Source: Methanoculleus oceani (GTDB taxonomy: Archaea > Halobacteriota > Methanomicrobia > Methanomicrobiales > Methanoculleaceae). Taken from it: a DNA stretch of 64,000 bases. Positions 30,573 through 48,278 of the stretch are shown here, piece after piece. How positions within the stretch are numbered: position 1 is the first letter of the stretch; the number at the start of each line of letters is the position of its first letter. The notes below the pieces were generated by a model that was not told the origin of the DNA, did no database searches, and saw only the letters and a list, made by a program, of their open reading frames with translations. The DNA lies in assembly GCF_023702065.1 (NCBI RefSeq), contig NZ_QFDM01000001.1:62001-126000 (forward strand), in the 5' to 3' direction. A program made the position numbers and the translations under genes.

Positions 30573-32906
30573 TCACAACTTCCGGCCGGACGCAGGGACG
30601 ATCCGGACGTTCATCTTCTCCGAGCCGATGATCAGGATACCCTCTCCCGGCTGGAAGTTGAGAAGGTCTTTTTCGCTCACCTCGAAGAACTTGGCGTTCT
30701 CCTGGGCCTGCTTCTTGTTCTCCGACCGCATGCAGAACTTCACGGCGATGTTCGCCAGGATCTCCTCGTTGAAGTGGGCGATCAACTGGGACGCAAGGAT
30801 CAGCGAGACCCCGAACTTCCGCATCTCGGTGGCGTACTTGTTTAAGACCGCCTTGATCGCCGTCTTCGATCCGCTCTTCTGGCTCACCAGGAGTTTCGCC
30901 TCGTCGACGATGACAAAGAGCCGGAACTTCGCCCGGTCATCCTCCGTCCCCCGCGGGATCTCGCCCGTCGCCTGGAGGGTGTAGTAGATCCGCCGGAGGA
31001 AGAGGTCCGCAAAGAGGTAGCGCAGATTCTCCGGGAGGGCGTTTAAATTGATATGGGTGATCCCGCCGGAGAGGATCGTGGGAAGGGAAATCTTCTCCTC
31101 CCCCGAGAAGAGTTTGTAGTCGAAGATGTCCTCGAGGTAGGCCGGGATCGCCTCGTCCTCACAGCCCATGATCTCGCCCTCGATATCGTCGAAATCGAGC
31201 ACCCGCGTCCAGGTCTCGGTGTTCCCCGTGATCCCCGACATCCGGTAGCAGTCCTTGATGATGTTCTTGATCTTTCGGCGCTGCTGGATGCCGAGGGTCG
31301 GGAAGTTGATGGAGATGGCATCGACGAAGTCCGAGGTGGCCCGGAGCGGGGTGATCTCGTCGATGGAGGGATCGAGCTCCAGCGGGTTGAAGTAGTACTG
31401 CCCGCCCTCGCGGATCTTGTAGGACCGGATGTCCCCCGTGCTCGCGGCCATGTCCCCGTGGAAGTCGATCAGGACGACCGGCATCGCCTTCGTCGCAAGC
31501 TCCGAGGCGATGCACCGGATCGTCTCGGTCTTGCCGGCGCCCGAGCCGCCGAGGATGATCATGTGGCCGTTGTTGAGCAGTCCCGGCGACCAGTCGACCT
31601 GCCGCCCGTCCGGGGCGTGGCCGAGGAAGATGTCGAGTCCGCCGGCGCGGGGAACGACTGGCCGAAGGGCAGGAGTTCGAGAAGCCGTCGGGCTTCGAGG
31701 AACAGAATTTGAGGAGGCCGCAGACGACGGCACGGACGGGATCGACTCTTTCTCCTCTTCTTCCTCCTCTTCCTCATCGTCGGCGAAGAGGGGTTCGTCC
31801 CACTCGTCCTCCTCCACCCCCTCTTCGGCCTGAGGCATGGGCGTTGCGGCCGCGCTCTCCTCGAAGACGATAAAGGGCTCTTCACGGAGAGGGGGGAGAG
31901 GCTCCGTTGCCGGAGCCGGCCGCTCTATGGCGATTTTTTCAGCAACCTCGGCCATCAGCTCCCGCCCGAGGTCGCGGAGGCGCGCTTCGTAGAGGTTCCG
32001 GTCCTTGACGATGAAACGGGCGAGGTCGACCCCGTCGTCCTCGCGCACCCCCTCGAGGACGTAGATCGCGTCGGTGAGCAGGGAGAGCACCCGCACCAGC
32101 TCGCGGCGGTGAGCCGGCGAGGCCCGGATACGGTCGTAGTCCTCACCGCAGGCGAGGTAACGCAGAACGGTGAACGTCGAGTAGAACGACTCGAGGAGCA
32201 TGTCATAGTGCTCCCGGACCCCCGGGTCGATCCGTTCAAGCATCCCCTTGAGGATGTACGCAAACTCCGGTGGAAAGGTATAGACGACGCCGTCGGCCCT
32301 GGACCCGTCGAGATCGTAGGCGTAGGCAAGGACCGCGCACCCGGCGGCCTTGAGCCGGGCGGCGAACCGCTCGCACTCGGTAAAGAGGCCGGGACTGTTG
32401 TTGAGGAGAAAACTGACGAACGTCTCTTCGGTGCGGGGAAGCGTGGATGGGAAGGTCTTGTTGATAAACGACCCCTTTACGGTCCCCGCGAGAAGGGCCG
32501 GGACGACCTCGTGGATCTCGCGGGCCAGTCCCCGGATATCCAGCGCCCGGAGCCGCGCCTCCATCAGCGGCCGGGCTATCGCTTCTCCGGTAGAGGTCGC
32601 CCTGATCACCGTCGTGCCGTGCCAGGAAGTGGACGCGATGAGGTCGACCTGCCTGAGCGCGAAGAGCGGTCCCGACGTATAAGCGTAACAACTCTGTTCG
32701 ACCACGCCCTCCCCTTCCCCCCGGGACGACGCGCTGTTCTGGGCGATATAGATGTAGAGAAGCGTCTCGACGATGTCGCGGACCTCCTGCAGCCGGAAGT
32801 CCCGCAGGTATTCGATGACGGCGGGAGGGAACGACTCCACCAGGGTACGGACCCCGGCATCTGCATAGCCCATCGCTTTGAGTGCTTCGGTAAGGTCTGT
32901 TGACAC
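30573..32906 (-). CDS. HerA/VirB4-type ATPase
   Basis: This 777-residue protein has an N-terminal domain of some 400 residues without a clear family, then a highly acidic tract (EEDEWDEPLF...EEEEEEEKES, about 430-480). The ATPase domain follows: Walker A GGSGAGKTETIRC, Walker B VVLIDFHGDM, the second acidic strand FVIVDEAKLLVSQ and a sensor in SLILASQLIAHF. This fold belongs to HerA/FtsK-like translocases that pump DNA or protein. The start GTG at 32906 has a GGTGA site; the frame upstream to 33164 is spurious. The acidic linker may keep the N-domain separate. Confidence 0.82.
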   Translation of the reverse strand: MSTDLTEALKAMGYADAGVRTLVESFPPAVIEYLRDFRLQEVRDIVETLLYIYIAQNSASSRGEGEGVVEQSCYAYTSGPLFALRQVDLIASTSWHGTTVIRATSTGEAIARPLMEARLRALDIRGLAREIHEVVPALLAGTVKGSFINKTFPSTLPRTEETFVSFLLNNSPGLFTECERFAARLKAAGCAVLAYAYDLDGSRADGVVYTFPPEFAYILKGMLERIDPGVREHYDMLLESFYSTFTVLRYLACGEDYDRIRASPAHRRELVRVLSLLTDAIYVLEGVREDDGVDLARFIVKDRNLYEARLRDLGRELMAEVAEKIAIERPAPATEPLPPLREEPFIVFEESAAATPMPQAEEGVEEDEWDEPLFADDEEEEEEEEKESIPSVPSSAASSNSVPRSPTASRTPALRPVVPRAGGLDIFLGHAPDGRQVDWSPGLLNNGHMIILGGSGAGKTETIRCIASELATKAMPVVLIDFHGDMAASTGDIRSYKIREGGQYYFNPLELDPSIDEITPLRATSDFVDAISINFPTLGIQQRRKIKNIIKDCYRMSGITGNTETWTRVLDFDDIEGEIMGCEDEAIPAYLEDIFDYKLFSGEEKISLPTILSGGITHINLNALPENLRYLFADLFLRRIYYTLQATGEIPRGTEDDRAKFRLFVIVDEAKLLVSQKSGSKTAIKAVLNKYATEMRKFGVSLILASQLIAHFNEEILANIAVKFCMRSENKKQAQENAKFFEVSEKDLLNFQPGEGILIIGSEKMNVRIVPASGRKL

Positions 32907-38590: not shown

Positions 38591-39331
38591 ATGGACGAAA
38601 GACGGTGGCTGATCGCCCTGGGTGCAGGGCTTATTCTCCTCTCGGTCGTGCTTTACGCCCTGCACTTCCTGATCTTTCGGGACTTCTTCCACATCAGCAT
38701 CTACACGCTCGGCGATATTGCGTTCCTCCCGCTCGAGATCCTGCTGGTGACGCTCGTCTTTCACCAGGTGCTCGCGTCCCGCGACCGGCGGCAGAGGATG
38801 GAGAAACTGAACATGCTCATCGGGACGTTCTTCTCGGTTCTCGGGAGCGAGCTCCTGACCTACATCTCCGACAACGATCCCAACCTGGACGAGATCCAGC
38901 AGCTGCTGATAGTCGACGACACCTGGACCGACGAGACGTTCCGGGAGGTGGAAAAGCGGCTGAAACGGCATCCCTGCCGTGTCGGGGTGGAGAACGTCGA
39001 CCTGGCCGGCGTCAAACGGTTCATAGGGTCGCGCGAGGACTTTCTCCTGCGGCTGCTGGAGAACCCGGTGCTCCTCGAGCACGAGACGTTCACCGAACTC
39101 CTCCGGGCGGTCTTCCACTTCAACGAAGAGCTGCAGCGCCGGCCCGGCTTCTCCGACCTGCCCGGGACCGACACGGCGCATCTCGCAGGCGACCTCGAAC
39201 GGATCTACGGACTCCTGATCCGCGAGTGGCTGGACTACATGCGCTACCTGCAGAAGAACTACCCGTACCTCTTCTCGCTTGCAATGCGGACAAACCCCTT
39301 CGACGAGACGGCATCGGCAGTTGTAGAATAA
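38591..39331 (+). CDS. Archaeal membrane protein, two helices
   Basis: This 246-residue protein has two N-terminal membrane helices (about 7-29 and 40-62) and a long soluble helical domain ending in YLFSLAMRTNPFDETA. The soluble part is rich in Leu and charged residues and contains HFNEEL. It is similar to conserved uncharacterised proteins of methanogens. Function unknown. A hairpin array begins five bases after its stop codon. Confidence 0.65.
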   Translation: MDERRWLIALGAGLILLSVVLYALHFLIFRDFFHISIYTLGDIAFLPLEILLVTLVFHQVLASRDRRQRMEKLNMLIGTFFSVLGSELLTYISDNDPNLDEIQQLLIVDDTWTDETFREVEKRLKRHPCRVGVENVDLAGVKRFIGSREDFLLRLLENPVLLEHETFTELLRAVFHFNEELQRRPGFSDLPGTDTAHLAGDLERIYGLLIREWLDYMRYLQKNYPYLFSLAMRTNPFDETASAVVE

Positions 39332-39817
39332 ACGACGGGCCGAAGGGTGCGACGTTCCAGTGGAACGGAGCAGGAGCACCGAAGGTGCGGGTTGCGACGG
39401 ACAACGTCCGGAGCATGAGAAGCCGTCAGGCTTCGATTCCGGAGTTCGAGAAAATGCGAAGCATTTTCGAGTGACGACTGCCGGAACGGCAGGAGCTTGA
39501 GCACCCTAGGTGCGAATGGCGACGTTCCGTAAGGAACGGAGTTTAAGCGCCGTCAGGTGCGAGTTGCGACGCGTGCCCTAGGGAGGCAGGCGGAGTTTGA
39601 GAAGCTGTCAGGCTTCAAATGCGACGCGTGCCCCAAGGGGGCAGGCGGAGCAGGAGCACCGCAAGGTGCGACTTGTGATGTGTGCCCCGGAGGGTGCGAC
39701 GCTCCAGTGGAATGCGACGGGCCGAAGGGCCAGAGCAGGAGCACCGACAGGTGCGACTTGCGGCGCTCCGCCAGAAGTGGAGTTCGAGTCCCGAAGGGTT
39801 TCGAGTCCGGGCCCCCT
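39332..39817 (+). repeat. Array of about 20 variable-stem hairpins
   Basis: The whole gap between two convergent genes is filled by stem-loops placed every 20-30 bases. Stems differ in sequence but pair perfectly, e.g. CGTTCC/GGAACG (39353-39367), GCACC/GGTGC (39376-39388), GAAGCC/GGCTTC (39419-39434), GAAAATGC/GCATTTTC (39450-39468), TGCCCC/GGGGCA near 39628-39642. Linkers are conserved and alternate: type 1 close to GAGCAGGA, type 2 close to GAGTTGCGA. Loops are three or four bases (GAA, AGT, GTCA, GTAA, GCAA). A second array is at 46169-46276. No direct long repeat exists, so it is not CRISPR. Confidence 0.85.
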
Positions 39818-40642
39818 CTACGCCATCTGCGCCCTGATGTGCTGCACCGTCTCGGGATACTGCTTCTCGAGCCTGTTCTTTTTGAGGTTCTCCCTCACGA
39901 TCCACCGGATGTCTTTGTCGTCGAGGGTGGCGAGCTGCCGCAGGTACTCAAACCCGATCCCGGGAAGGGCGACGATGACCAGGCTGAGCGTGTAGCCGAG
40001 CGCTTTTCGAAGCGCGCGGAAGGCCTCGGACTGCCTCTCCTTCGCGGTGTAGACACGGATCAGGGTCTTCCTGTGGAGCCTGAACGCCGTCTCTGCGAGT
40101 TCCGGTTCCGCGAGGAGGTCCGGTTCGGCAATCCCCGCGACCGCCGCCCGCATGGCGAGCCAGGACCCTCCTTCCACCCAGTCTTCCAGCTCCGGAACCG
40201 TCGTATCCCGTTGCCGCGAGAGGAGGTTCTGAAGTCCCATCGCCACCGCCTCCCTGATTCGCCACCGCGGGTCGTCGGAGGCCTCCGCCAGGTGTTTGAG
40301 CGCCTCCTCGACGCATGCCGGCGATACGGACCCTATCGCACCGATGCCCCGAACACCGCAGAACCCGAGGAACTCGTGCGGGTCTCCCGTCGGCGCATCT
40401 TCCGGAGAGACACAGGCAAGCTCGACACAGAGATCCCACAGGACCCGGTGATCGTCGGCATCGGCAACGGCAAACTCCCGCACGGTCTCGGCAAACGCCT
40501 CCGCGAGCTCCAGGTTTGCCCGGGGTCCGGGGAGACGGCTCTCCGCAACCAGGTAGGCGAGAAGATCCCCGGCGTTTCCGCTCGAAAGAAAACTCGTGAG
40601 CAGCCGGGCAACCTCCCTGATATGGGTCTCTTTGCGGGTCAT
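39818..40642 (-). CDS. HEAT-like helical repeat protein
   Basis: This 274-residue protein is all-helical with repeated units of about 40 residues, such as DDPRWRIREAVAMGLQNLLS and GSWLAMRAAVAGIAEPDLLA, the pattern of HEAT repeats. The C-terminal region contains IRVYTAKERQSEAFRALRKA and ends with RAQMA. HEAT scaffolds bind proteins or nucleic acids; this one resembles DNA-alkylation-repair-like helical proteins by composition only. It lies 42 bases after the GTPase gene on the same strand. Its 3' end abuts the hairpin array. Confidence 0.65.
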   Translation of the reverse strand: MTRKETHIREVARLLTSFLSSGNAGDLLAYLVAESRLPGPRANLELAEAFAETVREFAVADADDHRVLWDLCVELACVSPEDAPTGDPHEFLGFCGVRGIGAIGSVSPACVEEALKHLAEASDDPRWRIREAVAMGLQNLLSRQRDTTVPELEDWVEGGSWLAMRAAVAGIAEPDLLAEPELAETAFRLHRKTLIRVYTAKERQSEAFRALRKALGYTLSLVIVALPGIGFEYLRQLATLDDKDIRWIVRENLKKNRLEKQYPETVQHIRAQMA

Positions 40643-46035: not shown

Positions 46036-46168
46036 GTGCAGCGTTCACCCCGGGGACGAAGAGGCCGGGAGGCGGCGGAGACCTCGCCCCGGCGGAGAAT
46101 CGGGGGTGTGAACGGATCCATGCAGATACTGGGAACGTCGGGGTTAAGAAGGTTTCCCGGGGGCGTTC

Positions 46169-46276
46169 GCACCTAACGATGCTCATCCTCCGTTCCGGTG
46201 GAACGTCGCGGCTCGAAGACCTTCGGTCTTCTCATGCTCCGTTCCGGTGGAACGTCGCAACTCGCACCTTCGGTGC
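46169..46276 (-). repeat. Second hairpin array, five stem-loops
   Basis: Read on the minus strand, five hairpins follow the stop of the SRPBCC gene at 46291: GCACC/GGTGC (46264-46276), CGTTCC/GGAACG (46240-46254), GAAGACC/GGTCTTC (46215-46231), CGTTCC/GGAACG (46191-46205) and a degenerate one at 46169-46182. The linkers again alternate between GAGTTGCGA-like and GAGCATGA-like, as in the array at 39332. So the family also follows a stop codon here. Confidence 0.85.
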
Positions 46277-46290
46277 TCGAGCTCCGGCTC

Positions 46291-46767
46291 TTACGACCCG
46301 TCGCTTTCCGCACGCTCCCTGAGCGCCCGGTTCATCAGCAGGAACCCGAGATGGGTCGCCCGGAAGGTGCCGGTGAGGTCGACGACGGGCACCAGCAGCC
46401 CGGTGAAGACCTCGGCCTGGACGAACCGCGAACCGTCGCCCTCGGGAGCGATGGTGAACCGGTGTTCTCCGTCGAAGAGCCCTGCGATCAGGACACGGCC
46501 GATCCACCGGAGCTCGTGGTCTTTCGCGACCCGCAGCACCCTCGGGGAAAACCGCATGCTCTTCCGTCCCGGGGGTCGGATCTCGACCGAAAGGCGTGTC
46601 CCCACCCAGGGTTTCCCCTCGATCGAGAGGATGAACGGGTTCCAGTCGGGGTAGGAGGCGAAGTCGGTCAGCACCCGCCAGACGACTCCGGGAGGGGCGT
46701 CGATGATGGTCTCGGCCCGGACTTCCCGGACCAGGATCCCGGAGTGTGCCGGCAGGGGGGCGGTCAT
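46291..46767 (-). CDS. SRPBCC-family protein
   Basis: This 158-residue protein has the START/Bet v1-like fold: ETIIDAPPGVVWRVLTDFAS, PDWNPFILSIEGKP, and a C-terminal long helix LGFLLMNRALRERAESD. Such folds bind lipids or hydrophobic small molecules in the cytosol. The start ATG at 46767 gives the family N-terminus; an upstream frame to 47187 is spurious. Its stop is directly followed by the second hairpin array. The ligand is unknown. Confidence 0.8.
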   Translation of the reverse strand: MTAPLPAHSGILVREVRAETIIDAPPGVVWRVLTDFASYPDWNPFILSIEGKPWVGTRLSVEIRPPGRKSMRFSPRVLRVAKDHELRWIGRVLIAGLFDGEHRFTIAPEGDGSRFVQAEVFTGLLVPVVDLTGTFRATHLGFLLMNRALRERAESDGS

Positions 46768-48077: not shown

Positions 48078-48278
48078 TCACCACCTCACGCCGAAGATCG
48101 GCTCCTCCTCGACGATGTTCGTGATCCTCCGGACACTCGCCTCCACCGGGACGTCCTGCCCTGCGCAGAGTCCCTGTTTGAGTTGCTCGAGGCCCGCAGC
48201 CACCGAATCATCCTTCGAACGGACACCGCTTACCGTCACCCTGAACGTCAGCGTCACCAGCCATTGAGTCGTCTCCAT
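48078..48278 (-). CDS. Small 66-residue protein
   Basis: The product METTQWLVTLTFRVTVSGVR continues with SKDDSVAAGLEQLKQGL and ends IFGVRW. The strand-helix-strand arrangement suggests a small ferredoxin-like or dodecin-type fold. A GAGGGAGAAG ribosome site lies before the ATG at 48278. No family is recognised for certain. It sits 89 bases upstream of the 2H phosphoesterase on the same strand, so both may be co-expressed. Confidence 0.6.
   Translation of the reverse strand: METTQWLVTLTFRVTVSGVRSKDDSVAAGLEQLKQGLCAGQDVPVEASVRRITNIVEEEPIFGVRW

Follow-up and report, generated by a model that had tools for sequence, protein, structure and literature searches.

REP, BIME and REPIN sequences are short, dispersed, extragenic hairpins that occur in clusters and are linked to RAYT transposases (PMC3116915, PMC3733652, PMC6006769). 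The REPIN doublet, an inverted pair, is a mobile unit and is thought to move via single-stranded hairpins. Other small palindromic units are the double-hairpin elements of Allomyces mitochondrial DNA and the GC clusters of yeast mitochondrial DNA (Paquin et al. 2000, in PMC2800124, PMC4478555). They are tiny mobile units (GC42 is 42 bp) with no known enzyme of their own; they are intergenic, they merge and shuffle, and they are flanked by short repeats, for example AG. The Rickettsia palindromic elements (RPE) insert not only in spacers but also within genes (PMC3733652), and IS621-type IS110 elements aim their insertion at dispersed palindromes, namely REP hairpins (PMC11208160). For archaea, a survey of satellites lists a 45-nt and a 51-nt family in M. 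marisnigri (Fam_48_45_4 and Fam_102_51_3) and names M. conradii as the only archaeon with transposed non-coding satellites (PMC6749651). That survey defines families by period only, and describes no hairpins, mobility, or genus-wide family (PMC6749651). Apart from its listing, we found no description in the literature of the Methanoculleus module family that is reported here.

The locus that we studied is an array of hairpins in a Methanoculleus genome. We consider it likely that a miniature mobile DNA element has built this array by nesting, namely a REP-like archaeal double hairpin that inserts into its own kind. Like REPs and REPINs, the two-hairpin module is dispersed, extragenic, palindromic, and present in high copy. 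The module resembles REPIN, GC-cluster, and double-hairpin mobile DNA, but it has neither the tag, the enzyme, nor the inverted doublet of the REP/RAYT system. Instead of a GTAG or CGTC tag it has feet of the form CGA..GAG (the CGAC before hairpin 1 reads as GTCG on the complementary strand and differs from the CGTC tag of PMC3733652). Its hairpins lie head-to-tail on one strand instead of forming an inverted pair, its stems vary freely, and its host is archaeal. Furthermore, the array-rich genomes lack Y1/RAYT, and the gene is found in array-poor ones only.

With the mitochondrial double-hairpin elements the module shares a two-hairpin unit whose presence or absence is polymorphic between relatives; this is a likeness by description, and we do not claim homology. 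The mitochondrial elements are eukaryotic, and the portions of the sources that we drew on report for them neither a rule of GA..GA flanks and GNA loops with freely covarying stems nor nesting that is specific for orientation and for a position in the 3' arm. The RPEs differ in size, sequence, and host, and RPE-4 and RPE-6 belong to CGTC REP families (PMC3733652). An IS621-type element is a full insertion sequence with a recombinase, whereas here the insert is a 45-bp hairpin unit in a genome without IS110. Finally, the 45-nt and 51-nt satellites of M. marisnigri are probably the tandem-amplified form of the two-hairpin module.

The array and its parts

The window is a stretch of 64,000 nt, and its 486-base gap at 39332-39817, between two convergent genes, is packed with hairpins. 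The first-pass annotation had placed the array correctly: it starts one base past the TAA stop of the upstream gene (38591..39331, + strand; 246 aa, without a match in Pfam) and extends to the stop of the downstream gene (39818..40642, - strand; 274 aa, with a weak match to HEAT repeats that is below the cut-off). The array reads in the CGA-stem-GAG orientation on the + strand, and the 2.45-Mb genome has about 40 such arrays in all. It contains 11 perfect non-overlapping stems of at least 5 bp, as compared to a mean of 1.4 and a maximum of 4 in dinucleotide shuffles, and 14 stems of at least 4 bp, versus 5.0 in shuffles. Once imperfect and half hairpins are counted, there are 18-19 hairpins, and the initial estimate of about 20 was fair. 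The z-scores for RNA folding are -7.6 (+ strand) and -6.3 (- strand).

All of the parts of this array are on the + strand. It opens with the 5' half of an interrupted hairpin 1 (CGA CGGGCC gaa GGG, 39333..39347). This is followed by a nested insertion of 91 bp (39348..39438), which comprises two modules with hairpins at 39353-39367, 39376-39388, 39398-39410, and 39419-39434. The rest of the host's 3' arm (CCG) and its GAG foot are at 39439..39444, as identified from the sequence and from the filled/empty comparison. In genome G007 (locus L199), the host is intact and reads ACGACGGGCCGAAGGGCCGGAGTTCAAGAAAATGCGAAGCATTTTC where the window reads GGGCCGAAGGG-[91 bp]-CCGGAG; the insertion is absent from that orthologous site, with a subject gap of 0. 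G011 (L197) is the same with small changes, and the filled/empty pattern is seen in four sequences.

A hairpin of type 2, GAAAATGC gaa GCATTTTC, was found by the scan for perfect stems at 39450..39468, and the GAAAACGC/GCGTTTTC stem found elsewhere is a two-sided compensatory change relative to it. At 39475..39518 is a canonical module (60.5 bits with covariance model (CM) R1), with CTGCCG/CGGCAG as hairpin 1 and GCACC/GGTGC as hairpin 2. The next module, at 39520..39565 (CM R1, 39.3 bits), combines CGTTCC/GGAACG with GCGCC/GGTGC. Two modules have a long hairpin 1: CGCGTGCCC..GGCAGGCG with GAAGC/GGCTTC (39570..39616, recognized from sequence) and CGCGTGCCCC..GGGGCAGGCG with GCACC/GGTGC (39622..39674; CM R1, 36.1 bits). 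At 39679..39712 are two consecutive interrupted half-hairpins (TGTGTGCCCCGGAGGG and CGCTCCAGTGGAA), each followed by TGCGAC, which from their sequence and from an architecture like that of other nested sites appear to be degenerate nested sites. The array ends with a module of CGGGCC/GGGCC and GCACC/GGTGC (39715..39759; CM R1, 50.7 bits) and with degenerate terminal hairpins (39764..39805; stem scan and sequence).

The family forms another array 7 kb downstream, on the - strand (46164..46303); this one has three modules, with CM R1 matches at 46164-46208, 46210-46257, and 46259-46303. The window also has weaker CM matches at 31655-31685 (+) and 48106-48139 (-).

Constant feet and loops, covarying stems

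The module has the form nnCGA-[hairpin 1]-GAG-nnn-GA-[hairpin 2]-GAG. The two-hairpin module, originally proposed to be about 50 bases, is a unit of about 45 bp. Hairpin 1 is CGA-[C..G]-GAG and hairpin 2 is nGA-[G..C]-GAG, which agrees with the earlier observation that stems begin with G after one type of linker (type 1) and with C after the other (type 2). The linkers themselves had been described as two conserved sequences in strict alternation. Because the flanks follow the CGA..GAG rule, these two "linkers" are mostly the feet of adjacent hairpins. They share one form, GAG-n2..4-CGA, in which C-G, G·A, and A·G make up the hairpin feet, leaving a true linker of only 2-4 nt. The alternation is real, but it is broken at 39333-39353 and 39679-39718, so that hairpin types cease to alternate precisely at the nested sites.

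Stems flanked by GA...GA are 16-17 times more common than expected by chance: in stretches drawn from around matches, there were 138 versus 8.8 expected in 292 kb of the array's own genome and 475 versus 27.4 expected in 906 kb from other loci. From the established chemistry of nucleic acids, we infer that the feet form sheared tandem G·A pairs. The loops are also constrained. Of 374 triloops, 284 are GNA (with all four bases at N), as compared to 10% in other hairpins, and 158 of 214 tetraloops are GNNA, as compared to 6.6%; the copies are related, and these are not counts of independent events. Loops of the form d(GNA) are stable in single-stranded DNA. As cited in PMC9969394, d(cGNNAg) is a selected motif for stable DNA tetraloops (Nakano et al. 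2002). RNA would favor GNRA, so the excess of GNYA loops (135) over GNRA loops (23) speaks against RNA.

To measure covariation, we extracted 15-nt hairpin-1 segments by their flanks alone, without regard to the stem, which makes for an unbiased test. Among 182 distinct segments, the frequency of pairing per position was 0.60-0.82, versus 0.27-0.58 with shuffled partners. In an alignment of 37 modules, preselected to have at least 4 pairs per stem, the covariation score was 0.410, as compared to 0.149 ± 0.016 for shuffled alignments and no more than 0.096 for slid ones. The first-pass annotation had claimed that the stems differ and yet pair, which holds across the genus. It had also claimed that selection acts on pairing. 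Selection is a further step, since the repair of quasipalindromes, in which one arm corrects the other, would give the same covariation; our data fit both. Moreover, hairpin 2 has a small vocabulary of stems, which includes GCACC, GAAGCC, GAAGACC, GAAACCC, and GAAAACGC. Some of the apparent change in stems therefore reflects the choice of module. The stems of hairpin 1 vary more freely.

At five loci (L013, L014, L018, L032, and L037), some stems occur with an inverted loop (GAAAACGC-GAA-GCGTTTTC and GAAAACGC-TTC-GCGTTTTC). Inverted loops are expected from intrahairpin template switching.

A module that moves, nests within its own kind, and is concentrated in one genus

G044, G042, G024, G012, G008, and G001 have no such array in their orthologous spacers. 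In G044 and G042, whose flanks are 90-91% identical, the spacers are unrelated and 91-92 bp long; in G024, G012, and G001 the gap is just 14-19 bp. G007, G046, and G011 have shorter arrays. More broadly, the size and content of arrays turn over between species whose flanks are 88-93% identical.

Single modules of 43-50 bp also form precise filled and empty sites between related species. For example, L159 and L184 differ by 48 bp with GTG on either side, and L144 and L107 differ by 46 bp with AG (the right flank is 95% identical over 533 bp). Further pairs are L042/L027, L027/L024, and L187/L183 (nested). Some insertions are within genes: between L123 and L224 a methyltransferase gene (L123:3885-4619) differs by a net 45 nt with the frame kept, and between L110 and L251 a small unknown gene (L110:4347-4730) has in-frame additions at two sites, one of 16 codons and one of about 15. 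These insertions in L123 and L110 are reminiscent of Rickettsia palindromic elements. The repeats that flank module sites are 0-5 nt and partly ambiguous, and there is no target duplication of fixed length. These relatives are 80-95% identical and no event within a strain was seen; gain instead of loss is indicated at the window site by two relatives, and is a matter of plausibility at the others. Arrays also grow in tandem, as in perfect arrays of 45 bp x 9.2 and 46 bp x 7.2; G019 has a perfect 45-bp array. Among the options offered by the first-pass annotation, it is the selfish repeat that agrees with a dispersed family, presence/absence polymorphism, nested insertion, and in-frame insertion in genes.

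The genus also has dispersed copies of a larger, MITE-like palindromic element (L024, L027, L029, L035, L039, L041-L043, L107, L134, and L184). This element has inverted ends (for example, GTGGATATCGCCA..TGGCGATATCCAC), a GC-rich central hairpin, and C-rich arms, and it often hosts two-hairpin modules, sometimes in both orientations.

For nesting, we virtually excised each of 205 modules and accepted new hairpins whose halves were not already paired. In 20 cases, excision brought back a host hairpin; these cases include orthologs, and the independent events are fewer. All 20 junctions fall in the stretch from the last loop base to base 3 of the 3' arm, and the 5' arm has none. When the cuts were shifted, there were 0-4 restorations, except for 7 at -8 nt and 17 at -6 nt. 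Under one strict rule for orientation, 8 modules have the same orientation as their host and 0 have the opposite.

The array matches 70 places in its own genome by BLAST, and the covariance model identified at least 153 modules there and at least 179 in G019, which we take to be M. marisnigri JR1. (As to a bias for one replication strand, the strands among the matches listed for G019 look mixed by eye.) In a search of the order, 33 of 35 Methanoculleus genomes were positive; the family is not peculiar to one genome. Some near-complete Methanoculleus genomes (G002 and G023) have fewer than 10 modules. Nearly all of the positives from outside the genus had 1-8 matches; the exception was G092, from a sister genus, which had 86 modules upon rescoring; G047 rose to 15 (some of these extra-genus matches are from metagenome-assembled genomes (MAGs), which might be contaminated). 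Among 345 genomes from the phylum, the matches were to Methanoculleus and to just two weak others. In a pattern scan of 84,980 species, all of the matches listed were to Methanoculleus or to a MAG of a methanogen or euryarchaeote. Viral contigs gave no match to the module family.

In G047, which belongs to another family of the order, three loci (L240, L249, and L259) have arrays of the same style with a different vocabulary (GGTTTC, CGACTTCGTCG). G047 is a 71%-complete MAG, and its arrays could be a related family or contamination. Arrays also lie at the ends of many MAG contigs (e.g., G005:C9:16-149 and G042:C126:13-101), so that short-read assemblies probably break at them and MAGs understate their number.

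Profile searches of the array's own genome did not identify Y1/RAYT (PF01797), reverse transcriptase (PF00078), or IS110 (PF02371); the latter two are sporadic in other genomes. We consider all three to be unsupported as mobilizers. PF01797 was absent from all 11 of the array-rich genomes tested, in searches that included positive controls, and present in 5 of the 9 array-poor genomes tested. The Y1 transposase genes are in array-poor species only (G020, G002, G022, G023, and G013), which is a striking negative association.

Alternative explanations and implications

The main alternative is that no enzyme is involved, and that replication slippage and template switching at hairpins (by quasipalindrome correction and microhomology-mediated duplication) build the arrays. 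These processes would copy adjacent hairpins, invert loops, and keep the arms complementary. The perfect tandem copies, the flanking repeats of 0-5 nt, and the lack of a transposase among the Y1, reverse transcriptase, and IS110 profiles are as this explanation predicts; so are the GAA and TTC loops on some stems, which are typical of intrahairpin template switching. Template switching at stalled hairpins could also yield part of the nesting. However, the breakpoints match the ends of modules instead of falling at random points, single modules are found at unique sites within genes, and the modules are abundant mainly in one genus, although hairpins occur everywhere. We therefore view an enzyme-free origin as unlikely. 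The array was also considered as a CRISPR array, which we rejected: its linkers are 2-4 nt and its stems are self-complementary, instead of constant repeats with unique spacers.

The other explanations would give the array a function, and the placement of arrays relative to genes bears on each of them. Arrays are mostly intergenic. At 120 loci in other genomes, arrays are overrepresented in convergent gaps and underrepresented in divergent ones; in the array's own genome the distribution of gap types is near background, with 10 of 31 assigned arrays in convergent gaps as compared to 48 of 215 gaps (genes were called by a simple codon-usage script, and single calls may err). An enrichment behind stop codons, which the first-pass annotation had raised, is seen for units on the gene's own strand: 17 same-strand units versus 2 opposite-strand units lie 0-40 nt past a stop, a measure that is somewhat asymmetric, since for units on the opposite strand hairpin 2 lengthens the distance by about 25 nt. 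This excess and the convergent gaps of the other genomes would suit a transcribed structured RNA or a protein-binding platform in the 3' UTR, as had been suggested at first, and a stem flanked by GA..GA is similar to the NC helix of a kink-turn, which might be bound by L7Ae. In a kink-turn, a 3-nt bulge separates a C helix from this NC helix with its GA/AG. Nevertheless, we think that a role as RNA is very improbable: in tandem gene gaps the strand of the array is random (27 same versus 25 opposite), the loops are GNYA, most units lack a C helix beside them, the array has no match in Rfam up to E = 1, and six relatives lack it at the orthologous spacer. Equally doubtful is the idea that selection keeps the arrays as structural sites in the DNA for a protein of the nucleoid, a topoisomerase, or a condensation protein, as has been proposed for REP/BIME. 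Many copies, mainly intergenic and strongly structured, and a shortage in divergent gaps of the other genomes fit with such sites, but the turnover of arrays between species with similar flanks and the scarcity of modules in G002 and G023 do not. A bidirectional terminator, another of the initial suggestions, would explain a location between convergent genes, but we give it almost no credence: there is no run of more than 4 Ts in the window's array on either strand, convergent gaps are not strongly preferred in this genome, and relatives manage with a gap of 14-19 bp that has no array.

If the array is instead a nest of mobile elements, as we favor, then a module might be excised or copied via a folded single strand. 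Its sheared-GA foot and GNA loop would be recognized by their shape, and not by the sequence of the stem, and the module would be inserted at a nick close to another hairpin's tip. Stems that are diverse but paired would be expected because only the fold matters, or because the arms template each other's correction, or both. No host function would be required. In its most specific form, which we offer tentatively and as a possibility that we would not bet on, this is a minimal archaeal mobile DNA of about 45 bases, without genes, that is recognized by shape, nests within its own kind near hairpin tips in a specific orientation, and is moved by an enzyme other than RAYT or an HUH Y1 transposase.

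Our results carry a caution for genome analysis, which is that covariation, even if strong, does not require a functional RNA. The modules also probably account for breaks in Methanoculleus assemblies and for the 45-nt "satellites." Because there are array-rich genomes without Y1/RAYT as well as array-poor relatives (G002, G013, G017, G018, G020, G022, G023, G041, and G087), the spread of gene-less hairpin elements could be tested in cultivable Methanoculleus. If our interpretation is true, then mobile DNA like REP/REPIN and the double-hairpin elements would extend to the archaea with a different set of rules: the sequence of the stem is free, while the foot and the loop are fixed and match motifs of exceptionally stable single-stranded DNA hairpins.
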